A stretch of DNA of 64,000 nt. It comes from Microbacterium soli. GTDB taxonomy: Bacteria; Actinomycetota; Actinomycetes; Actinomycetales; Microbacteriaceae. The position numbers and the translations under genes are program-made. The stretch is taken from the NCBI RefSeq assembly GCF_039539005.1, contig NZ_BAABCP010000001.1:620001-684000 (forward strand), written 5' to 3'. The notes below the pieces were generated by a model. The model was given only the letters and a program-made list of their open reading frames with translations. It made no database searches and had not been told where the DNA came from. Of the stretch, positions 29,966-40,524 are shown in pieces (within the stretch, counting starts at the first letter, position 1; every line of letters starts with the position of its first letter).

Positions 29966-30041
29966 TCACCGGAACAGGAGATTCGCCTGGAACAGGACGA
30001 TCCGACAGCATCCGTCCTGTTCTCGCCGAATCTCCTGTTCT
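29966..30041. repeat. Intergenic palindrome family, copy 1
   Basis: Begins TCACCG and contains outer arms GAACAGGAGATTCG (29972-29985) and CGAATCTCCTGTTC (30027-30040), a perfect 14-bp match. Inner arms GAACAGGACG (29990-29999) and CGTCCTGTTC (30013-30022) match over 10 bp around a 13-base loop. ACAGGA occurs twice in direct order 18 bp apart, then TCCTGT twice 18 bp apart. It lies between the end of the GDPD gene and the start of pcrA. Two more copies are at 37847 and 38908. Confidence 0.85.
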
Positions 30042-30083
30042 CGTGCGATGGCGCGCGGCACCGCCGCACGACGCGGCACGGCC

Positions 30084-31070
30084 TCAGCCCCGGAACAGCG
30101 CCACGCCGAGGTCGGGATGGTCGACGAAGACGCCGTCCACCCCGGCATCCGCCAGCACCCGCCACTCCGCCTCGTAGTCGCCGAACGCCGCCTTCGCGCG
30201 CCCCATCCGGAACGGCGCGGACAGGAACCGGTTCTCCGGACGGCAGGTCCAGGTGAACACCCGCAGGCCGCGGGCGTGCGCATCCGGGACGATCGTGCTG
30301 CCGGGCCTCAGCAGCATCGCCTTGTCGACGCTGACGCCGTCCACCTCGCCGCGAAGGCCGTCCAGCCCCTCGGGCGTGACGAACCAGGCGTAGTCCCGCG
30401 CCGCACGACCCTGCTGCGAGACGAGATCGAAGGGCCGTCCGGACGCTTCGATGAGGAAGACGAAGGATGCCGCGATGCCGGTGTCCCTCAGCCGTGCCAG
30501 CACGCTCTGCTCGAACGATTCCACGATCAGCGGCAGCTCGCCCTCCGCCCACCCGCCGGCCCGCAGATCCCGCTCGATGAGCGGCACGAGGTCGAGATCG
30601 ATCTGCTGGAAGTGGGTGGCGTGCTTGACCTCCAGGACCATGCCGATCTCGCGCCCGTGCTCGACGGACGCGCGCCGGATCATCGCCAGGAGGTCGGGGA
30701 GGCGGAGGATCGGCTGCAGCCCGTCGAAGCTGGCGCTGGAGGCGCGGATGCCGGGGAGCCGTTCGCGCGTGCGCAACGAGGCGAGCTCGTCCCAGGTGAA
30801 GTCCTCGGTGAACCACCCGGTCAGCGGCTGGCCGTCGATGCGCTTCGTGGTGCGGCGATCGGCGAACTCCGGATGCCGTGCGACATCGGTCGTGCCGGAG
30901 ATCTCGTTCTCGTGCCGGATCACCAGCACGCCGTCCTTCGTGGCGACCACATCCGGCTCGACCGCGTCGACCCCCATGGCGAAGGCCAGCTCGTAGGACG
31001 ATCGGCTGTGCTCGGGCCGATATCCGGGCGCACCGCGGTGTCCGATGATCAGCGGGGTTTTCCTGGGCAC
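30084..31070 (-). CDS. glpQ: Glycerophosphodiester phosphodiesterase
   Basis: 328 residues of the GDPD TIM-barrel family, which cleaves deacylated phospholipids to glycerol-3-phosphate and an alcohol. The catalytic start IIGHRGAPGYRPEHS is present, with metal ligands in AVEPDVVATKDGVLVIRHE and the later EVKH. No signal peptide, so it is cytoplasmic. The GTG at 31070 is chosen because TACGCT lies 6 bases upstream; a longer reading from 31103 has no similarity. The nearby GTG 31076 is another option. Confidence 0.92.
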   Translation of the reverse strand: MPRKTPLIIGHRGAPGYRPEHSRSSYELAFAMGVDAVEPDVVATKDGVLVIRHENEISGTTDVARHPEFADRRTTKRIDGQPLTGWFTEDFTWDELASLRTRERLPGIRASSASFDGLQPILRLPDLLAMIRRASVEHGREIGMVLEVKHATHFQQIDLDLVPLIERDLRAGGWAEGELPLIVESFEQSVLARLRDTGIAASFVFLIEASGRPFDLVSQQGRAARDYAWFVTPEGLDGLRGEVDGVSVDKAMLLRPGSTIVPDAHARGLRVFTWTCRPENRFLSAPFRMGRAKAAFGDYEAEWRVLADAGVDGVFVDHPDLGVALFRG

Positions 31071-31076
31071 GCTCAC

Positions 31077-31082
31077 AGCGTA
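31077..31082 (-). promoter_or_regulatory. Leaderless -10 box (TACGCT) of the GDPD gene
   Basis: TACGCT, 6 bases, then GTG 31070. It decides between several possible starts. Confidence 0.5.
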
Positions 31083-31158
31083 AAGCACCCCGTTCACAGG
31101 CATCCGCCGTTATCGTTGAGACAAGAGTTGACCGATCCCTCGGGAGCAGAGGCCACCC

Positions 31159-32103
31159 ATGAGCAATTTCGTCTTCAACAACCCGGCTTTCCAGCAGCAG
31201 GATCCGCGGAAGGCCGCCACGTACCCCGGAGCGCCTCGAGGCGCCCAGGGCACCTACGCACCGCCGCCCCCGCCCGCGGCCGCGCAGGCCGCGTCGTTCC
31301 AGCACGCCGGGATGGACGCCGCCGCGCACGCGCGGCTGGAGGGCATGTACTCCGCACCGTCCGCCGGCGCCATCGAGACCGACCGGATGACGGTCGAGGA
31401 CACCGTCTGGAAGACCGCCGGGCTGTTCGGCATCCTGCTCGTCACCGCCGTCATCGGCTGGGTGTGGACGCTCGGTGGACTCGTCCCGCGATTCGGCGTG
31501 GCGGAGGGTTCGCTCGTACCGTGGATGGTGGGCGCCCTGGGCGGCTTCATCCTCGCCATGGTCGTCACCTTCACGTCGCGCAAGAAGGTGCGCCCTGCGC
31601 TCATCTTCGCGTACGCGGCCTTCGAGGGCCTGTTCGTCGGCGGCATCTCGGCGTTCTTCGAGACCGTCTGGCCGGGCGTGGTCATGCAGGCGACGCTCGC
31701 GACGGTCGCCGTGGTGGGCGTGACGCTCGCACTGTTCGCCAGCGGCAGGGTCCGCGCGTCCAAGAAGATGACGAAGATCGTCCTCATCGCCATGGTCGGC
31801 TACCTGGTGTTCCAGGTGGTCAACCTCATTCTGATGTGGACCGGCGTCGTCAACGCCGACCTCACCTTCGGCCTCTACAGCATGAAGATCGCCGGCATCC
31901 CCCTCGGTCTCATCATCGGCATCCTCGTCGTGCTCATGGCCGCGTACTCGCTCGTGATGGACTTCGACCAGATCCAGCAGGGCGTGCGCAACGGCGCTCC
32001 CCGCCCCTACGGCTGGGTGGGCGCCTTCGGCATCATGGTCACCGTCGTCTGGCTGTACGTGGAGATCCTGCGGATCCTCGCGATCCTGCGCGGCAGCGAC
32101 TGA
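31159..32103 (+). CDS. Bax inhibitor-1/YccA family membrane protein
   Basis: 314 residues. Residues 1-80 are soluble and Pro/Ala-rich (FNNPAFQQQDPRKAATYPG), then seven hydrophobic segments follow. FEGLFVGGISAFFE and the later AYSLVMDFDQIQQGVRNGAP are typical of the actinobacterial branch. Members are calcium-leak-like channels or stress proteins; the function here is not known. GGGAG lies about 12 bases before the ATG. The gene is divergent from GDPD and ends before paired hairpins. Confidence 0.9.
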   Translation: MSNFVFNNPAFQQQDPRKAATYPGAPRGAQGTYAPPPPPAAAQAASFQHAGMDAAAHARLEGMYSAPSAGAIETDRMTVEDTVWKTAGLFGILLVTAVIGWVWTLGGLVPRFGVAEGSLVPWMVGALGGFILAMVVTFTSRKKVRPALIFAYAAFEGLFVGGISAFFETVWPGVVMQATLATVAVVGVTLALFASGRVRASKKMTKIVLIAMVGYLVFQVVNLILMWTGVVNADLTFGLYSMKIAGIPLGLIIGILVVLMAAYSLVMDFDQIQQGVRNGAPRPYGWVGAFGIMVTVVWLYVEILRILAILRGSD

Positions 32104-32134
32104 CACCGTCGGGCCCGGGGCCGTCACCTCGCCC

Positions 32135-32178
32135 GCTCCCGCGGCGCGAGGCGCGGGAGCCCCGGCGGCAGACCGGGG
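32135..32178. terminator. Paired hairpins after the Bax1-like gene
   Basis: GCTCCCGCG and its complement (32135-32160, 8-base loop) are followed by CCCCGG-CGGCAGA-CCGGGG (32160-32178). They lie between convergent genes and probably end both transcripts. Confidence 0.6.
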
Positions 32179-32251
32179 TTCCCCTCCGGTCCCTGTGGCG
32201 CAACATGCCGTCTCGGCCCACCCGGGTGCGGCGCGTCGAGCCACGCGACGC

Positions 32252-33646
32252 TCAGCGGCGCGCGGGACCCGCGAGTGCCGTGCGGGTGGCTGCGGCGAGG
32301 GCGGTCATGGCCGCGTCCTCGCTCCACGCGGATGCCACCGCGGGGGCCTCCCCGGCCAGGCGCGCGCGCAGCGGGGCATCCGTGAGCACTCGACGGATGG
32401 CATCCGCCAGCGCACCCTCGTCACCGGACGGGACCAGCATCCCTCCCCCACGGCCCAGCGCGTCGCCGGGCCCGTAGCGCACGTCGTACGACACGACCGG
32501 GCAGCCGGCGGCGAGCGCCTCGACGATCGACAGCCCCTGGCCCTCGAACGCCGTGGCGGTGACCATGAGCTCCGCGCGGCGCAGCACGGCGTCCGGGTCG
32601 TCGGTGCGGCCCATCAACGCCACGCGGTCGCCCCCGTCGAGGGCCGAGATCAGTTCGGCGACGGATGCCGTGGACGGCCCGTCACCCCAGATCTCCAGGC
32701 GCGTGCCCGGCACATCAGCGGCGAGGAAGGCGCGCACGAGGTGATCGATGCGCTTGCCGGGAGCCAGGCGCGAGATGCTGACGACGAGCCCCGGTTCGCG
32801 CTCGGCGTCATTCACCGTGGGGAGACGGATGCCGTGTGGTGCGACGAGGTTCACGGCCTCCCCGCCGAACCGGGCCTGCACGTCGTCGCGCTGCGCCGGC
32901 GTGGGCCAGAGCACCGCGTCGAAGCGGTCGCTGACCGCGAACCAGCGCGTCCACAGCGCGTTGAGCGGGGCGTCCGGGGTGTACGGCGGTTCGAGGTGCA
33001 TGGTGTGGATGGCGTGCACGATGCGAACTCTCGGGTTCGCCCACCCGGCCAGCAGCTCGCCCAGCTGCCGCGACTCGCAGATCACGACGACGGGCTTCTC
33101 GCTCGCGCCTGCGAGGTGATCGAGCCAGGCCCGGTACAGCCCGCCGAAGCCGGGGAGCGCGCCGACCGTGCCGCCGTGCTGGTCGTACACGCGCACCGCC
33201 GCCGCGCTCAGATGCCAGTCCGGGTTCCCGTGGATCACCGGCAGCGCGGCGTACGGCCGCCCCTCGGCATCCGTCAGCTCTCGATACTCCACCGCGCACT
33301 CCGCTTCCACGGACCGATCGGCGGACGCGGCGGCGGCGCGCAGCCACGGTGCCGCACCGCCATCGGGGGCGGAGGCCTCGTCGAAGAGGTTGCGGAGCGG
33401 GATGCCGGCGGGCAGCATCCCGAGGCGCGCGAACTCCTCGCGATGCGCGGCGTGCACCGCGGCATCCGCGGGGTCCACCGTGAGCACCTGCACGTCGGCG
33501 CCGTTCTCGGCCATCTGCCGGGCGCGGGAAGCCGTGGCGATCGTGTAGCCGCCGTCGAGTCCGGGGATCAGCCGGCTCGACAGGACGAGAAACGCCGCGT
33601 CGGGGAACAGTCCCTCCCCGGACGCGGCGTCACTCACAGCGCTCAC
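32252..33646 (-). CDS. Family 4 glycosyltransferase (TagE/GtfA-like)
   Basis: 464 residues with a GT-B fold. The C-terminal donor-site motif [28 protein letters not shown] is close to that of TagE/Gtf-type enzymes that glucosylate teichoic acid or surface proteins. Mid-protein [17 protein letters not shown] is the usual GT4 donor-domain start. No membrane segment. The GTG at 33646 overlaps the guaA stop (GTGA), so it is translationally coupled to GMP synthase; GTG 33637 is an alternative. The acceptor is unknown; a wall polymer is likely. Confidence 0.85.
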
Positions 33647-35229
33647 TCCCACTCGATCGTCGCCGGCGGCTTGGAGGTCACGTCCAGCACGACGCGGTTG
33701 ACCTCGCGCACCTCGTTGGTGATGCGGTTGGAGATCCGCGAGAGCACGTCGTAGGGCAGGCGCGTCCAATCCGCCGTCATGGCGTCCTCGCTGGAGACCG
33801 GGCGCAGCACGATCGGGTGGCCGTAGGTGCGGGCGTCGCCCTGCACGCCCACCGAGTGGACGTCCGCCAGCAGCACCACCGGGCACTGCCAGATCGTCTG
33901 GTCCAGACCCGCGGCGGTGAGCTCCTCGCGGGCGATGGCGTCGGCTTCTCGGAGGATGTCGAGCCGCTCGCGGGTCACCTCGCCGATGATGCGGATGCCC
34001 AGGCCCGGGCCGGGGAACGGCTGACGCCCCACGATGGCCTCGGGGATGCCGAGCTCGCGGCCGATCGCGCGCACCTCGTCCTTGAACAGGGCGCGCAGCG
34101 GCTCGACGAGCTCGAAGTCGAGGTCCTCGGGGAGCCCGCCGACGTTGTGGTGCGACTTGATGTTCGCGGTGCCCGTGCCACCGCCCGACTCCACGACGTC
34201 CGGGTACAGGGTGCCCTGCACGAGGAACTTCACGGGGGCGCCGCCGGTGGCCTTCGCCTCCTCGACGAGGTCGCGCTGGACCTGCTCGAAGGCGCGGATG
34301 AACTCGCGGCCGATGATCTTGCGCTTGGTCTCCGGGTCGGTGACCCCGGCGAGATGCCCGAGGAACGTGTCCACGGCGTCTACGGTGATCAGCCGCACGC
34401 CGGTGGATTCGACGTAGTCCTTCTCGACCTGCTCGCGCTCGCCCTTGCGCAGCAGTCCATGGTCGACGAAGACGGCCGTGAGCTGGTCGCCGATGGCCCG
34501 GTGCACGAGGGCCGTGGACACGGCCGAGTCCACGCCGCCGGACAGCGCGGAGATGACGCGGGCGTCACCGACCTGCTCACGGATGCGGGCGATCTGCTCG
34601 GAGATCACACTGTCGCTGTTCCAGTCGGCGGGCAGTCCCGCGCCCTTGTGCAGGAAGTTCTCCAGGATCTCCTGACCGTGGTCGGAGTGCCTGACCTCGG
34701 GGTGCCACTGCACGCCGTACAGTCTGCGCTCCTCATTCGCGAAGGCCGCCACCCTGGTGGCATCCGTCGTGGCGAGCACCTCGAAGCCCTCCGGCGCGCG
34801 GGAGACCTGATCGCCGTGACTCATCCACACGTTCTGCTCGGCGGGCTGGCCGCTCAGCAGGGTGCTCTCGCCGGCGTCGATGTGCGCATCCGTGGCACCG
34901 TACTCGCGCAGACCCGTGTTGGCGACCTCGCCGCCGAGCACCTGCGCCATGTACTGGAATCCATAGCAGATGCCCAGCGTCGGCACCCCGAGCTCCAGCA
35001 CGGCGGGATCGAGCCGGGGAGCGCCCTCCTCGTACACCGACGACGGCCCACCGGAGAGGATGAGCGCCGCGGGGTTCTTCGCCGCGATCTCCTCGGCGGT
35101 CGCCGTGTGCGGCACGATCTCGCTGTACACACCCGCCTCACGGACGCGGCGGGCGATCAGCTGCGCGTACTGCGCACCGAAGTCGACGACGAGCGCGGGG
35201 CGGTGGTGGGTCTCGGTCTGCTCGGTCAA
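33643..35229 (-). CDS. guaA: GMP synthase [glutamine-hydrolysing]
   Basis: 528 residues that convert XMP to GMP. The class I amidotransferase domain (about 1-200) has VVDFGAQY, the catalytic Cys in [10 protein letters not shown] and WHPEVRHSD. The ATP-pyrophosphatase domain has SGGVDSAVS, and the dimerisation domain ends in the family-typical PPATIEWE. The start is TTG at 35229, overlapping the previous stop (TTGA) and preceded by GGAAGG at 6 bases, which makes this rare start credible. Confidence 0.97.
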
Positions 35230-35711
35230 CGGGAACCTTCCGGGGAGGTGGCGGGGATGGATGCGGCGGAGCCGGCGGCCGACTCGCGCTCGGCGAGATA
35301 GGCTCTCACGTCACGGGCGACGCGGGTCTCCATGAAGAAGGAAAGCAGCGGGACGACGCCGCCGAGAGCGAGCAGGATGAAACGCGGGAACCGCCAGCGC
35401 ATCAGGCTCCACATCCGGAAGCAGGCGAAGAGGTAGACGACGTAGAACCAGCCGTGCACGATGAGCACGCCCAGCGAGAGGTTGACGCCGTCTCCCGTCG
35501 ACTGCAGCCCCTCGGGGCCCTCGACCACGTCCGCGAACCAGAGGAATCCGCCCCTGCCGCCGAGGAAGAGCTCGAGGCGGATCGGCGTGTACTTCAGCAC
35601 CATCTCGGTCACGAGCAGCAGCAGCATGACACCGGTGATGATCGACGCGATCTGATAGAAGGTCAGCGCGCCGCGGATCGCCGGAAAACTCGCGACTTTC
35701 GGTTCGGCCAT
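35226..35711 (-). CDS. DUF3817 membrane protein
   Basis: 161 residues with four hydrophobic segments, typical of the DUF3817 family found next to guaA in many actinobacteria. The C-terminal tail is Ala/Ser-rich. Function is unknown. TAGAAT lies 6 bases before the ATG, giving a clear leaderless start. It heads the operon DUF3817-guaA-glycosyltransferase, joined by overlapping stops and starts. Confidence 0.88.
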
Positions 35712-35717
35712 GGTGCC

Positions 35718-35723
35718 ATTCTA
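35718..35723 (-). promoter_or_regulatory. Leaderless -10 box (TAGAAT) of the DUF3817-guaA operon
   Basis: TAGAAT, close to the TATAAT consensus, then 6 bases and ATG 35711. Confidence 0.6.
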
Positions 35724-35816
35724 CCGGCCGCCACCCGGGCCCTCCGCCGGTCAGACGCCGTGCGCGCTCGGCTGCCGACGGGGTGCGCGCAGGCGCGTTC
35801 CGCCCGCACACGCCTG

Positions 35817-36638
35817 CTACTCCTGCGGCCTCGCACGGGCCTGCGCGGCCTCCTCGAACTCCTCCGTCTCCCTCTCCCAGGCGTCCTTGGCGAGCCGGTA
35901 CCAGAGGTAGAACGCGAAGCCGGCGAAGACCGCCCACTCGGCCGCATAGAAGATGTTCAGCCAGTTGACCGGCGATTTCAGCTCCGGGGCGGGGGAGCTG
36001 ATGTCGACGAGACCGGCGGGAGCGGCGACGGATGCCAGGTACGGGCGGTACACGTCCAGCTGCTCGACATCGTGCCACCGGCTCAGCAGTGCGGCGGGCG
36101 ACATCCGCACCAGTTCGGACGGGTCCGAGCGCGGCGGAACCTCGACGCCCTCGTCGTCGATGAGCCGTCCGGTGATCTCCGCGGTGACGGCGCCCCTGCT
36201 CTGCAGCGCCGCGGCGGCGGCATCCGCCTCCTCCCGCGTCTGCGCCCACCCGATCGCGACGGCGATCGAGGTCCGCTCGGCGACGCGCAGCTGACCGGTC
36301 ACCCAGTAGCCCTCCGCACCGTCGTTGAAACGCTGCGAGACGACGATGAAGTCCTCCGGGACCCAGGTTCCCGAGGTCTCGACGCGCTGACCGCCGAGAT
36401 GCTCGGCGAGGTACTGCCCGGGCCGGATCACCTCGGTCAGCGGACGCACCTGCTCGGTCACTCCGGGCTCCGGGGGCTCGGTGTCCACGGCGCGCGCGAG
36501 CTGCCACTGTCCGAGCCAGGCGAACACGCCCGCCACGACCAGGCACAGCGCGAGCACCCCGATCCACCGCCGGCGCAGCATGACCTCGCGCAGGGTCGGC
36601 GGGAAGTCCTGCGGTGTCAGCGGTGCGCTGTTCGTCAT
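35817..36638 (-). CDS. SURF1 family protein (cytochrome oxidase assembly)
   Basis: 273 residues with one membrane segment near the N terminus (RRRWIGVLALCLVVAGVFAWLGQWQLARA) and one near the C terminus (LNIFYAAEWAVFAGFAFYLWY), with an extracytoplasmic domain between them. The GQWQ and final NW...YAAEWxxFA motifs are SURF1 hallmarks. SURF1 proteins help insert haem a into cytochrome oxidase. The ATG overlaps the guaB3 stop (ATGA), a linkage seen in related bacteria. Confidence 0.92.
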   Translation of the reverse strand: MTNSAPLTPQDFPPTLREVMLRRRWIGVLALCLVVAGVFAWLGQWQLARAVDTEPPEPGVTEQVRPLTEVIRPGQYLAEHLGGQRVETSGTWVPEDFIVVSQRFNDGAEGYWVTGQLRVAERTSIAVAIGWAQTREEADAAAAALQSRGAVTAEITGRLIDDEGVEVPPRSDPSELVRMSPAALLSRWHDVEQLDVYRPYLASVAAPAGLVDISSPAPELKSPVNWLNIFYAAEWAVFAGFAFYLWYRLAKDAWERETEEFEEAAQARARPQE

Positions 36639-37759
36639 CCCAGCGCGTACGGTGCGAGGACGACCTCGACGCGCTGGAACTCCTTGAGGTCGGAGTACCC
36701 GGTCGTCGCCATGGACTTGCGCAGCGCACCGATCAGGTTGGCCGTGCCGTCCGCGACGGGGGCGGGCCCGTAGAGGATCTCCTCGAGGCTCGCCACGCCG
36801 TCCACGGCCACGCGTCTGCCGCGCGGCAGCTGCGGATGGTGCGCCTCGGCGCCCCAATGGAAGCCCTGACCGGGGGCGTCCGTGGCCCGTGCGAGCGCGA
36901 CGCCCAGCATGACGGCATCCGCCCCCATCGCGAGAGCCTTGACCAGGTCGCCGGAGGTGCCCACGCCGCCGTCGGCGATCACATGCACATAGCGTCCGCC
37001 CGACTCGTCGAGGTAATCGCGCCGCGCCGCGGCGACGTCGGAGACGGCGGTCGCCATGGGCGCGTGGATGCCGAGGGTCGCGCGTGTGGTGGACGCCGCG
37101 CCCCCGCCGAATCCGACCAGCACGCCCGCGGCGCCCGTGCGCATCAGGTGCAGCGCGGCCGTGTAGGTGGCCGCACCGCCGACGATGACGGGCACGTCGA
37201 GGTCGTAGATGAACTTCTTGAGGTTCAACGGTTCGGCCACGCTCGACACGTGCTCGGCCGAGACCGTCGTGCCGCGGATGACGAAGAGGTCGACACCGGC
37301 CTCCACGACGGTGCCGTACAGCTCCTGTGTGCGCTGCGGGGTGAGAGAGCCGGCGACGGTGACGCCCGCCTCGCGGATCTCGGCGAGGCGCTGCTTGATG
37401 AGCTCGGGCCGGATGGGCTCCGAGTACAGCTCCTGCATGCGCACGGTCGCACGGTCGGCCGGCAGTGCGGCGATCTCGTCGAGCAGCGGCTGCGGGTTCT
37501 CGTAGCGGGTCCACAGGCCTTCGAGGTCGAGGACGCCGAGCCCGCCCAGCCTGCCCAGCATGATCGCCGTCTGCGGGCTGACCACGGAGTCCATCGGCGC
37601 ACCCAGGACCGGGATGTCGAAGGAGAACGCGTCGATCGTCCACACCGTCGAGACGTCCTCCGGGTTGCGCGTGCGCCGTGACGGCACGACCGCGATGTCG
37701 TCGAACGTGTACGCACGACGTGCACGCTTGCTTCGGCCGATTTCGATCTCCATGCTCAC
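36635..37759 (-). CDS. guaB3: GuaB3 family IMP dehydrogenase-related protein
   Basis: 374-residue TIM-barrel protein related to IMP dehydrogenase and GMP reductase, without CBS domains. It begins MEIEIGRSKRARRAYTFDD and keeps ADGGVGTSGDLVKALAMGADAVM. In the active-site loop, where IMPDH has a catalytic Cys (GSICTT), this protein reads GAASTT with Ser223 at the Cys position. The related mycobacterial GuaB3 also lacks the Cys, from memory. Its reaction in actinobacteria is therefore open. The GTG at 37759 has TAGTCT 6 bases upstream. Confidence 0.9.
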   Translation of the reverse strand: MSMEIEIGRSKRARRAYTFDDIAVVPSRRTRNPEDVSTVWTIDAFSFDIPVLGAPMDSVVSPQTAIMLGRLGGLGVLDLEGLWTRYENPQPLLDEIAALPADRATVRMQELYSEPIRPELIKQRLAEIREAGVTVAGSLTPQRTQELYGTVVEAGVDLFVIRGTTVSAEHVSSVAEPLNLKKFIYDLDVPVIVGGAATYTAALHLMRTGAAGVLVGFGGGAASTTRATLGIHAPMATAVSDVAAARRDYLDESGGRYVHVIADGGVGTSGDLVKALAMGADAVMLGVALARATDAPGQGFHWGAEAHHPQLPRGRRVAVDGVASLEEILYGPAPVADGTANLIGALRKSMATTGYSDLKEFQRVEVVLAPYALG

Positions 37760-37765
37760 CCGTCC

Positions 37766-37771
37766 AGACTA
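37766..37771 (-). promoter_or_regulatory. Leaderless -10 box (TAGTCT) of guaB3
   Basis: TAGTCT, 6 bases, then GTG 37759; supports GTG over the ATG two codons later. Confidence 0.5.
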
Positions 37772-37846
37772 CCCGGCCGCCCCGACACCGCCGCCCCGCT
37801 CCCCGCGCTCCTCCCCTCCCGCCCTTCCCCTCCCGCACCTCCCCAT

Positions 37847-37924
37847 TCACCGAGAACAGGAGATTCGTCCGATACAGGACGGATCCCGGGATATCGTCCT
37901 GTCCTCATCGAATCTCCTGTTCTC
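37847..37924. repeat. Intergenic palindrome family, copy 2
   Basis: Outer arms GAGAACAGGAGATTCG (37852-37867) and CGAATCTCCTGTTCTC (37909-37924) match over 16 bp. Inner arms ACAGGACG (37874-37881) and CGTCCTGT (37895-37902) enclose a 13-base loop. The 18-bp period of ACAGGA and of TCCTGT, and the leading TCACCG, are the same as in copy 1. It lies between divergent guaB3 and the DUF559 gene, so it is not just a terminator. Confidence 0.88.
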
Positions 37925-38026
37925 AGACACACCGAACGCCCTGCACACCGCATCCCGCGCGGCACGTTGTCCCCAGCGGTCGGGATTCGGGGCTTCGACG
38001 CGGGCGGACCCGGCATCCTCGAAGGC

Positions 38027-38872
38027 ATGAGCACTCCGCTGATGGTGTGGATGCGGCAGCACGACGGCGTCGCGCACAGCCGCGATCTGCGCGAGCACGG
38101 CTACTCCCCGTACGAGGTGCGGAAGGCGGTGGATGCCGGAGAACTGGAGCGCGTCCGACGATCCTGGCTGCTGACCCCGCACTGCTCGCCGGATCGCCGT
38201 GCCGCCGCAGCAGTCAGCGGGCGGGTGACGTGCGTGACGGCGGCGGCGCGTCTGAAGCTGTGGAGCGGGGAGTCCTCCGGCGTGCACGTGGCCGTGCCGC
38301 CGACGTCATCGAGGATCGCCCGACCGGGGCTGGTGCTGCACTGGAGCGCCGGTCCGGTGCCCGTCGCCCGCTTCACCGTCGACGATCCCGTCCTGAACGT
38401 GCTGCACCACATCGCCCACTGCCTCGCCCCGTCGGACGCGGTGATCGTCTGGGAGGCCGCACTGCGCAGGACGCTCGTCACGCTGCCGCAGCTGCGCCGC
38501 ACGGACTGGCGAAGCACCGCCGTCGACGACGTGCTCCGCCGGGTGGGCCTGCTGTCGGATTCGATGCTGGAGACCACTTTCCTCGCCATCATGCGCAGCT
38601 GCGGAGTGGAGGTCCGTCAACAGGTGCTGATCGACGGGCACCGGGTCGACGGACTCATCGGTGAGCGCCTGATCATGCAGCTGGACGGGTTCGAGTTCCA
38701 CAGCACGCCGAAGGACCGTCGCCGCGACCTGCGCCAGGACGCCCGGCTCGCGCTGCTGGGTTACACGGTCCTGCGATTCGACTACCAGCAGGTGATGTTC
38801 GACCAGGAGTATGTGCAGCAGACCATCCTCAACGCCGTCGCGCAGGGGCTGCATCTCGCGCGCCGGCGGTGA
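38027..38872 (+). CDS. DUF559 / Vsr-like nuclease-fold protein with AbiEi-like N terminus
   Basis: 281 residues. The first 50 residues (GVAHSRDLREHGYSPYEVRKAVDAGELERVRRSWLL) resemble the winged-helix of AbiEi-type antitoxins and related proteins. The last 90 residues resemble the DUF559 domain of the PD-(D/E)xK/Vsr nuclease superfamily: VDGLIGERLIMQLDGFEFH with Asp208, Asp220 and Glu223 as possible metal ligands. Such proteins are very common in actinobacteria and have no proven role. The gene stands alone, flanked on both sides by copies of the palindrome family. The ATG at 38027 matches the family start; upstream residues in frame do not. Confidence 0.82.
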   Translation: MSTPLMVWMRQHDGVAHSRDLREHGYSPYEVRKAVDAGELERVRRSWLLTPHCSPDRRAAAAVSGRVTCVTAAARLKLWSGESSGVHVAVPPTSSRIARPGLVLHWSAGPVPVARFTVDDPVLNVLHHIAHCLAPSDAVIVWEAALRRTLVTLPQLRRTDWRSTAVDDVLRRVGLLSDSMLETTFLAIMRSCGVEVRQQVLIDGHRVDGLIGERLIMQLDGFEFHSTPKDRRRDLRQDARLALLGYTVLRFDYQQVMFDQEYVQQTILNAVAQGLHLARRR

Positions 38873-38907
38873 ATCCCCTGCCGCCCGCCCTCTGACCCCT
38901 CGTGCTG

Positions 38908-38985
38908 TCACCGATAACAGGAGATTCGCTCGATACAGGACGGATGCCACGCACATCTTCCTGTTCTCGGTGAATCTCCTGTTCT
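38908..38985. repeat. Intergenic palindrome family, copy 3
   Basis: Outer arms AACAGGAGATTC (38916-38927) and GAATCTCCTGTT (38972-38983) match over 12 bp. The inner ACAGGA (38935-38940) and TCCTGT (38959-38964) match over 6 bp. The 18-bp periods and leading TCACCG are kept, with one extra base in the loop. It lies between the convergent ends of the DUF559 gene and the decarboxylase gene. This is the most diverged copy. Confidence 0.85.
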
Positions 38986-39045
38986 GGAGAAAGGACAGCG
39001 AGACGGCAGGTGCACGACGCGGCAGGCACCGCGGTGGCGGGCGGG

Positions 39046-40524
39046 TCAGCGCGGCTCGGAGCCGCGCGCCAGCAGCTCGGTCAGCAGCGCTTCGGCGACC
39101 GGCGGCGGCAGCTGCTCGATCAGAGCCATGAGCTGCGCCATGGGGCGGCCGGAGGGCACCGCATCCGCCCCGGCCAGACGCAGCAGGCGCCACGAGACAG
39201 CAGGCCCCGGCACGCGCCCGCCCTCACCGTAGCCGAGCGCCCGCAGTCCCGCCGCCAGCATCCGCGCGTTCGCCCGCGGCCGTCCGCGCACGGAGTCGGA
39301 TGCCGAGCGCAGGGCATCCGTGAATTCGGTGATGCGCTGCTCGAGCACCGGGGTGAAGGTGAGATGCGCACTGTGCGGGATGCGCACGCCGTCTGACTGC
39401 AGCCGGCCGGGCTGATGCTGGATGCGCCACCCGCGACCGACGAGGGCGTCCGCGAGATGGTACGGATCCACCTGCTGCTCCGGTGGGGCAGAGGCGTCGG
39501 CGACCAGCGTCATCGCCGGCCCGGTCGGTTCGCCCATCACGGACAGGCCGCGGATGCCGTCGACAGCCGTGCGCACGGCGGCTGCGACCCGCTGGATCGA
39601 CCCGACGAGCTCGGCGTACCCGCGCTCCCCGAGGTGCTGCGTGATCGCCCACGCGGCGGCCAGCGGAGACGCGGAGCGGGAGCCGAGCAGGGTGGGGTTG
39701 ACCACCGGGTACCCGGCCCAGCGCGTCGTCGCGAAGAACTGCGCACGATGCCGCCGCCGACCGCGATGCAGGAGCACCGAGACGCCCTTGGGCGCGTAGC
39801 CGAACTTGTGCAGATCGGCGGACATGCTCGTCACTCCGCGCGCACGGAAGTCCCAGCGCGGCAGCCCCGGCCACCACGGCAGCACGAAGCCGCCGAAGCA
39901 CGCGTCGACGTGGCAGGAGATGCCCCGGTCGTCGGCCGCGGCGGCCACCTCCTCGATCGGATCGAGCACGCCGCTCGGGTACGCGGGGGCCGACACGACG
40001 ACCATCGCGACGTCGTCACCCATCCGCTCGACGAGGTCCGCAGCGCGCACCGCGCCGTTCTCGCAGCACGGCACCGCGTCCACATCCAGATCGAACAGCA
40101 GCGCGGCCTTCTGGAAGGCGGCATGCGCATTCGTCGACGTCAGCAGCCGCGGCCGCCCGCCCTCCGGATGCGCGCGCCGCCACAGATCACGGGCGGTCTT
40201 CACCGCGAGCAGGCAGCTCTCGGTTCCCCCGCTGGTGATCGAGCCGACGACGGAGCGACCGCCGTGCAGCACCCGTCGTGTGAAGCCCACGAGGTCCCGT
40301 TCCATCACGGCGATCGAGGGGAACACCGTCGGGTCCAGCCCGTTCAGCGGCCGGGCGAGGCTCGCCGCGGCATCGGCGAGTTCATCGAGCTCCCCCCTGC
40401 CGGAGTCGTACACGTACGAGAGCACCCGCCCGCCGTGCGTGGGCGCGTCCCGCGCCCGCAGCGCCCGGAGCCGCCCGAGGATCTCATCGGTGTCCGCCCC
40501 CGCACTCCGTCTCGCGACGCTCAT
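39046..40524 (-). CDS. PLP-dependent decarboxylase/lyase, sphingosine-1-phosphate lyase-like
   Basis: 492-residue fold-type I PLP enzyme. GGTESCLLAVKTARD binds the cofactor phosphate, HVDACFGGFVLPW carries the Asp that contacts the pyridine nitrogen, and Lys240 in SADLHKFGYAPKG forms the Schiff base. The order and motifs are closest to sphingosine-1-phosphate lyase and glutamate-decarboxylase-like enzymes. The last 100 residues (after about 390) are an extra helical region. Its ATG overlaps the transporter stop (ATGA). The substrate is unknown; bacteria of this group are not known for sphingolipids, so an amino acid is an alternative. Confidence 0.85.
   Translation of the reverse strand: MSVARRSAGADTDEILGRLRALRARDAPTHGGRVLSYVYDSGRGELDELADAAASLARPLNGLDPTVFPSIAVMERDLVGFTRRVLHGGRSVVGSITSGGTESCLLAVKTARDLWRRAHPEGGRPRLLTSTNAHAAFQKAALLFDLDVDAVPCCENGAVRAADLVERMGDDVAMVVVSAPAYPSGVLDPIEEVAAAADDRGISCHVDACFGGFVLPWWPGLPRWDFRARGVTSMSADLHKFGYAPKGVSVLLHRGRRRHRAQFFATTRWAGYPVVNPTLLGSRSASPLAAAWAITQHLGERGYAELVGSIQRVAAAVRTAVDGIRGLSVMGEPTGPAMTLVADASAPPEQQVDPYHLADALVGRGWRIQHQPGRLQSDGVRIPHSAHLTFTPVLEQRITEFTDALRSASDSVRGRPRANARMLAAGLRALGYGEGGRVPGPAVSWRLLRLAGADAVPSGRPMAQLMALIEQLPPPVAEALLTELLARGSEPR

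Follow-up and report, generated by a model that had tools for sequence, protein, structure and literature searches.

A dispersed four-box palindrome and its probable partner, an AbiEi-DUF559 nuclease-like protein, in Microbacterium

Main finding

A 64-kb stretch of the Microbacterium soli genome (RefSeq GCF_039539005.1, contig NZ_BAABCP010000001.1, positions 620,001 to 684,000; hereafter the window) harbors three intergenic copies of a palindrome built of four short boxes, and two of these copies bracket a single gene, 38027-38872, for a protein with an AbiEi-type winged helix and a DUF559 nuclease-like domain. As judged from sequence comparison, cognate pairing of this predicted nuclease with the dispersed palindrome is well supported. 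Such enzymes in Microbacteriaceae are usually bracketed by two four-box elements of one box sequence ("word") and one spacing, the bracketing word is mostly also the one that dispersed copies of that genome use, and word and spacing track the phylogeny of the enzyme. Probably, the palindromes and the AbiEi-DUF559 gene constitute one system working like REPINs with RAYT, with an unrelated enzyme in the place of the RAYT.

The features concerned are as follows.

29966..30041, no strand assigned: element 1, four-box palindrome with the ACAGG word, 18-bp spacing and a 17-base centre
37847..37924, no strand assigned: element 2, four-box palindrome on the upstream side of the enzyme gene, at 102 bp from the start codon (ATG)
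38027..38872, + strand: enzyme gene, 281 amino acids (aa) from the ATG at 38027 (301 aa if started from the TTG at 37967), with an AbiEi_4 winged-helix and a DUF559 (REase_MTES_1575-like) domain
38908..38985, no strand assigned: element 3, four-box palindrome with an 18-base centre at the downstream flank of the enzyme gene, 35 bp past its stop codon

Each element consists of four 5-base boxes in the order X-18-X-17/18-X′-18-X′. Box order, 18-bp spacing, 17- or 18-base centres and arm lengths were all confirmed when the sequence given in a preliminary description of this DNA was read again; that description had missed the gene between elements 2 and 3. Gene calls around the elements also agree with the three settings it had named (behind one gene, between divergent genes and between convergent genes): element 1 lies in a tandem gene pair, 43 bp beyond the 3′ end of a minus-strand gene (30084-31097), element 2 in a gap of divergent genes and element 3 in a gap of convergent genes. 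A word-agnostic scan, which looks for any 5-mer occurring twice in direct order and twice as its complement at fixed spacing (full score, 20/20), picked up exactly these three elements in the window at full score, and none in five shuffled windows.

Enzyme genes bracketed by matching elements

Element pairs 1.04-1.2 kb apart are found in several genomes. The six pairs examined, in the host genome (G000) and in G107, G115, G138, G049 and G163, enclose a homologue of the window protein, and two further pairs enclose other genes, one for a 208-aa protein (G029) and one for a 246-aa protein (G033). When the 30 best protein matches in the genus were chosen regardless of elements, elements were found on both sides of 19 by the CAGG pattern with up to two mismatches and of 27 by the word-agnostic scan at 18 bp, one chance match being excluded; the last three are bracketed too, L156 and L177 by the CAGG pattern and L155 by eye. 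The words at these 30 loci are ACAGG, TCAGG, CAGGC, GTAGG or GAAGG. More distant members of the family have a 19-bp spacing and words such as GTCGG, TTCGGA, TCGGT and CGAGG, and TCCGG and TCGGA also occur among the enzymes. Fourteen distant DUF559 loci were withdrawn as a negative control, for they have no matched pair at 18 bp but 12 of them had matched elements, with words of their own, once 19 bp was allowed.

Altogether, 58 of 73 AbiEi-DUF559 loci have matched word and spacing on both sides (27 from the 30 best matches and 12 from the 14 distant loci), compared with 0 of 30 pfkA control loci having any element on both sides (p 4e-15). Because the word-agnostic scan has a one-sided background, with matches at 13 of the 30 pfkA loci at score 18 and at 6 at score 19 (three of the pfkA genes with such a match adjoin a DUF559 cassette), the conclusions rest on matched two-sided counts. 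The set of loci was not random: it comprises the 30 best matches, 20 loci picked for E-value range or for having no CAGG elements, 11 from two-enzyme genomes, 5 further subfamily loci, one from Cryobacterium and 7 from a class sample. These make 74 loci, of which L182 and L230 are the same gene, so counts are given on 73 genes; counting this gene twice gives 59 matched of 74, and left-right agreement at 51 of 53. Loci outside the set are L277 and L288, both within the family, L285 (identical to L212) and 18 loci outside Microbacteriaceae.

Two observations touch the range of the bracketing. In Cryobacterium lactosi Sr59, a DUF559 homologue (L208) has elements on both sides at 19-bp spacing, with the inexactly matching words GAGGA and TAGGA. 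The host genome has two more DUF559 homologues, L305 (G000:C1:2083583-2084386) and L306 (G000:C1:457276-458055), and these seem by eye to be bracketed by unrelated palindromes of their own; the scan gave no matched pair at either locus, and one exact pattern for each palindrome, searched in the fetched loci, found no copy beyond the flanks, the first pattern missing even its own locus. The bracketing rule may extend to three families in the host genome.

Word, enzyme phylogeny and genome

The two sides of a locus mostly carry the same word. Strong elements are found on both sides of 52 loci, and at 50 of these the left and right word and spacing agree (shuffled mean 11.2, maximum 21 in 2000). 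On the enzyme tree, where 63 of the 74 rows were labelled with a word, four of them by hand, word classes change 15 times against a shuffled mean of 32.4, with none of 200 shuffles as low, and the 18/19-bp spacing changes three times. GTAGG enzymes form several separate clades, one of which shares its chromosomal locus with its ACAGG sister enzymes; words therefore switch in place.

The dispersed copies follow the same rule. All of the 23 genomes with a CAGG enzyme harbor 4 or more CAGG copies, and 22 of them have no GWAGG copy while G198 has one. Among the 10 genomes with a GWAGG enzyme, GWAGG copies outnumber CAGG copies in nine, for example 8 versus 3 in G013, and CAGG copies are absent from eight. 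This genome-wide agreement (p 2.6e-7) was counted with the flanking copies of the enzyme included, and three genomes with 19-bp enzymes (G287, G001 and G185) were left out. Furthermore, in four of seven two-enzyme genomes (G067, G268, G076 and G167), both enzymes are bracketed by their own, different words. The pattern is partial in G013, G189 and G194; the second enzyme of G013 is flanked by one ACAGG element and, on its other side, by a weak one.

As a separate observation, the single GTAGG element in the CAGG-dialect genome G198 (L310, G198:C1:1139697) is identical in its matched part to an element of G231 (L311, G231:C2:55893); it may be left over from an older dialect or have been transferred.

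Distribution and co-occurrence in the genus

A full-length sequence model of the element matches 250 of 366 genus genomes (E <= 1e-3), and 46 of 398 genomes, or 16 of 85 genera, in a family sample that includes the genus; copies per genome in these searches are at least the numbers found. The exact CAGG architecture occurs in 183 of the 366 genus genomes, with 1 to 50 copies per genome, and a reversed control pattern occurs once in each of 5 genomes. Among the copies listed per genome, the variant of outer and inner boxes tends to be common to one genome, other genomes using others, and two box variants are found in some, e.g., G137. The named relatives of the window protein identify the genus as Microbacterium: they come from M. 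esteraromaticum, M. commune and two further species, and also from two Cryobacterium.

Enzyme and element tend to be found together. With a close enzyme subfamily defined by E <= 1e-70, a cut-off set after its distribution had been seen, 361 of the 366 genomes fall into 90 with both the close subfamily and CAGG elements, 89 with elements only, 21 with the enzyme only and 161 with neither (p 6e-16, with no phylogenetic correction). Mean copy number of the element is 11.6 in the 111 genomes with the close subfamily and 1.7 in the 250 without it. In 11 of the 21 enzyme-only genomes, the enzymes were seen with GTAGG-type or 19-bp elements, which are invisible to the CAGG pattern. Since no more than 6 homologues were scored in each genome, gene numbers per genome are minimum values.

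Copies and conserved features in the host genome

In the 3.1-Mb host genome, assembled in four contigs, an exact three-box pattern matched 16 sites (15 on the reverse strand), and its control matched none. A half-site model built from the 32 half-sites of these 16 copies found 39 half-sites at E <= 2.5e-5, the next match having E = 0.2, which gives 19 full elements and one solo half. This lone half lies at C1:2223580-2223615 (L073), and its partner half is not recognisable. The boxes are near-invariant across the host copies, while divergence is seen in the centre and in the inter-box spacers. Because the first 16 copies were taken by exact pattern, their box invariance is in part built in; the half-site model, free of this requirement, contributed three more such copies together with the half.

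RNAalifold gave a covariation term of about 0 on the host copies, and opposite spacers of the 19 copies pair less well than those with right halves shuffled among copies (0.658 versus 0.713, z -3). Among 17 other sets, excess pairing at p < 0.05 is found in four (G161, G107, G137 and G117), and the others show none or less; the pooled z is 2.4, in a pool that includes a G000 set cut one base too long. For these sets, near-identical tandem copies were dropped and only listed copies were taken, and the G231 and G159 sets include copies of the relatives G253 and G158. What the host copies keep is box sequence and spacing, as would be expected if a protein reads the DNA, and we favour an interpretation of the palindrome as four protein sites. 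A terminator or RNA structure was rejected as the nature of the element for the lack of covariation in the host.

Thus far, the earlier overall reading stands in one part and finds no support in two. The small dispersed element that it proposed is real, and the chance that these three copies were the only ones, with nothing elsewhere, is clearly gone, many copies being present in the host and the genus. Selection for structure is not seen in the host genome, where it is box sequence and spacing that are kept. Recent spread is not supported either, given the diverged spacers and centres and three dispersed sites common on both flanks with another species (see below).

Known sequence families give no other name to the element. 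Rfam has no match at gathering score in the whole window and, for 37700-39100 alone, three matches that are all under that score. The RAYT domain (PF01797, Y1_Tnp) has no match in the host genome and matches in 5 of 14 control genomes, by which RAYT was rejected as the partner enzyme. As far as these searches go, the absence of a named REP family that the preliminary description had noted is upheld. Phage records contain no match to the element consensus and one weak match to the window protein; plasmid records contain five weak consensus matches only (E 0.2 or worse) and no homologue of the protein at 1e-12. An origin from phage or plasmid was rejected on these results.

The enzyme and the possibility of homing alone

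The window protein matches AbiEi_4 (E 4.6e-7) and DUF559 (E 1.2e-9) in Pfam, with REase_MTES_1575 just under the cut-off, and PADLOC reports an AbiEi match together with a weak homing-endonuclease match. Its structure, modelled from seven input sequences, is of modest confidence (pLDDT 67.7, pTM 0.39), and domain matches alone were used. The best Foldseek match of the model is the catalytic domain of the homing endonuclease I-Bth0305I (3r3p; TM 0.81 over the 3r3p_A chain, prob 1.00), which we take to be a member of the EDxHD/Vsr-like class; the best E, 2.5e-4, is to 3r3p_B. On this model of modest confidence, the match to 3r3p gives the protein a Vsr-like catalytic fold. A weaker match is the AbiEi antitoxin 6y8q (E 0.047). 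Residues D228, Q238, D240, G241, H245, D254, D258 and R270, numbered in the 301-aa reading (P0001), are identical in 74 of 74 aligned rows, representing 73 different genes, and D228, D240, H245, D254 and D258 are the predicted catalytic set.

A nuclease of this fold might do no more than home. The elements would then be pre-existing targets into which the nuclease gene inserts itself, the element-gene-element arrangement would come from repair of a cut element by a donor, and the elements would not be copied by the enzyme. That the closest fold is a homing endonuclease catalytic domain fits such a view, and so do the gene's presence at several loci, bracketed where viewed, and the occurrence of element-only and element-gene-element states at one locus. 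This last point comes from the pfkA locus in the best 30 of 80 genomes: the element-gene-element state is found in 3, elements without a close homologue in 4 (G062 was classed by eye, and G136 has a more distant DUF559-like gene), and no AGG-type element in 23, among which G011 has a full-score 19-bp match of another word and four others have almost adjacent neighbours. Homing alone leaves unexplained, however, the 10-50 matching elements in some genomes, the change of the word along with the enzyme, and the low mean number of elements where the close enzyme is absent, and we consider it unlikely.

Beside these states, the gap between pfkA and the S9 peptidase gene in G048, G018, G008, G035 and G158 (L233, L236, L238, L246 and L259) contains a more distant DUF559-like gene, identified by eye, with no element detected. 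The gap is a possible hot spot for the DUF559-like family.

Gene context and shared sites

Among 63 classified copies, 32 are located in convergent, 29 in tandem and 2 in divergent gaps, compared with 16 convergent, 28 tandem and 19 divergent gaps among the host background gaps of 90 bp or more (p 6e-5). One of the two divergent copies is the upstream element of the enzyme gene itself. Gaps were classed by a home-made gene finder with the background from the host alone, tandem copies were counted separately, and the counts exclude 3 copies that fell within gene calls and 5 at the edges of loci. Copies are often close behind a stop codon.

This placement bears on two other explanations. Transcription terminators, or hairpins at mRNA 3′ ends with a conserved sequence, would well account for 61 of 63 copies in convergent or tandem gaps, many of them just behind a stop codon. 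They would not predict the bracketing or the tie between the word and a single protein family; one copy is found ahead of the enzyme gene, covariation is missing in the host, and no T-run is visible beside the aligned copies (the alignment was viewed, with no terminator scan). Such an explanation is very improbable, and the statement of the preliminary description that the palindrome is not a plain terminator holds as far as tested. The other explanation is an operator system, in which the AbiEi-type domain would be an autorepressor with operators flanking its gene and the dispersed copies would be sites of its regulon. AbiEi antitoxins are described, in the part of the source available to us, as binding inverted repeats in their own promoter (PMC7319586), and one element in the window is a short way upstream of the gene, its distance to the ATG being 102 bp. 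Against an operator stand the downstream element, which has the same word, the avoidance of divergent, promoter-bearing gaps by the dispersed copies (2/63), which sit behind genes, and the conservation of nuclease-domain residues. An operator system is rather improbable.

Some sites are common to two species. When elements of G092 were fetched at 16 places, three dispersed sites matched a host element site on both flanks, with flanking proteins 66-82% identical, and at one of the common sites a single host copy corresponds to three tandem copies in G092. At the enzyme locus, G092 has the gene and one neighbour in common with the host; four more sites have one common flank, one of them beside the enzyme locus, and the rest have none. 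The site of element 1 gave no four-box match in the orthologous gap of any of four relatives (L222-L225; gaps of 0.4-0.9 kb).

Tandem arrays of elements with a period of about 105-250 bp were observed at L142 (G161), L143 (G017), L301 (G092) and L141 (G058); at L142, four copies lie 182 bp apart.

Proposed mechanism and evidence against it

If palindrome and enzyme form one system, the N-terminal winged helix would recognise the box word, the protein spanning the four boxes as a dimer or tetramer; this is suggested by the precedent of AbiEi proteins, which bind inverted-repeat operators, and by the fixed spacing. The C-terminal Vsr/I-Bth0305I-like domain would nick or cut at or near the element, to judge from its fold. 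Repair of the break would then place a copy of the element, or occasionally of the whole element-gene-element unit, at a new intergenic site, as copy number, replacement of dialects and the parallel to REPIN-RAYT suggest. Insertions would be mostly behind genes, where little harm is done, and the copies may then last long and multiply locally as tandem repeats. It is also quite possible, as a more tentative proposal, that AbiEi-DUF559 proteins, of which a Microbacterium genome has several, form a new class of DNA nuclease associated with repeats. Each would recognise a four-box palindrome of its own through a winged helix that can be re-programmed, at a fixed register of 18 or 19 bp, cut there, and maintain and spread its private palindromes, with many orthogonal dialects and sometimes two or three on one chromosome.

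Several observations weigh against one self-copying system. The close subfamily is missing, at the E cut-off used, from 89 of 179 element-bearing genomes, 33 of which carry 5 or more copies, and its loci are few (at least four), so that the gene would seem to pass on mainly by inheritance and not by hopping. Fifteen of the 73 loci fail the matched two-sided test, and matched elements are absent from the two further in-family loci, L277 and L288, and from all 18 homologous loci outside Microbacteriaceae. In the word counts, G036 has a GTAGG enzyme with 1 GWAGG versus 3 CAGG copies, and G276 has a single GWAGG copy, which flanks the enzyme gene itself. Foldseek lists mitoribosomal proteins right after the homing endonuclease (E 6.7e-4, low TM), and a mutual-information scan for word-setting residues gave no clean column. 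No movement was seen, neither a target-site duplication nor a transposition intermediate, in a comparison made without near-identical strains, and present activity may be low because some element sites are common between species.

Relation to known systems

The closest parallel is REPIN-RAYT. As described in the parts of two sources available to us (PMC3116915; PMC8049555), REPINs are dispersed extragenic inverted-repeat doublets with a variable spacer, a distinct repeat type stands beside each enzyme gene with several types possible per genome, and the enzyme is chromosomal and long inherited. Here, too, dispersed intergenic inverted-repeat doublets with a variable spacer are found, and the enzyme is flanked by its own repeat type (58/73), for a different enzyme: RAYT is a Y1 tyrosine transposase, whereas the partner here is an AbiEi-DUF559 protein. 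The element differs as well by having four boxes at 18/19-bp spacing, and its exact-pattern copy number of 1 to 50 compares with 69-235 in E. coli, as given in the available part of PMC8049555. Compensatory changes, common in REPINs according to the portion of PMC3116915 at hand, are absent in the host genome. We do not assign the system to REPIN-RAYT, because its defining enzyme is absent in the host.

REPs tagged with GTAG or CGTC are also palindromic repeats found predominantly downstream of genes, and the CGTC REPs are said to be without a dedicated transposase, in the available part of PMC3733652; the present element differs from both by its four boxes and its cognate enzyme. The GTAGG word is one dialect among many here, and its relation to the GTAG tag, which was not searched for, is not shown. 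The available text of PMC3733652 has no mention of Microbacterium, Actinobacteria or DUF559.

EDxHD/Vsr-like homing endonucleases such as I-Bth0305I resemble the enzyme in nuclease fold and in a gene bracketed by its putative target, but the present protein has an AbiEi-type winged helix at the N-terminus, and its putative targets are dispersed multicopy palindromes in place of one intron or gene site. With AbiEi antitoxins of type IV toxin-antitoxin systems, the protein has the N-terminal domain family AbiEi_4 in common, known members of which bind inverted repeats (excerpts of PMC7319586); it has a nuclease-like C-terminal domain in place of the antitoxicity domain, and the elements are found on both sides of the gene and dispersed.

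Integron attC sites also have four boxes in inverted pairs with a variable centre and flank exchangeable genes. In those three respects the element is similar; it differs in that the word is enzyme-specific and the associated protein is DUF559, and no cassette array was seen, an integrase not having been searched for.

Among open-licence papers searched by title and start of abstract, which is weak evidence, no report joins DUF559 or AbiEi-DUF559 to palindromic repeats, and no description of such repeats in Microbacteriaceae was found. Palindromic repeats without a dedicated enzyme, like the CGTC REPs, are a stated open point in the accessible part of PMC3733652; a repeat family with a plausible non-RAYT enzyme provides an independent test case for the idea that extragenic palindromes need a private enzyme. 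The pairing further suggests a role for DUF559, still named a domain of unknown function, and predicts from sequence alone the DNA target of dozens of its members. It also offers a natural set of enzyme-target pairs, in which, according to the enzyme tree, specificity was switched several times.

Neighbouring genes and rearranged loci

The names given here to neighbouring genes (IMP-dehydrogenase-like, ABC-F, S9 peptidase, pfkA, trmD, map and methyltransferase) are presumptive, assigned from sequence. At the trmD/map locus, the same two neighbours enclose element-DUF559-element in G163 (L138) and element-246-aa gene-element in G033 (L140), like a swap of cassettes. At the locus of the window (36635-40524) and at L154-L165, the three neighbour genes around the enzyme cassette are found in all three pairings across species, as if recombination between elements rearranged them.

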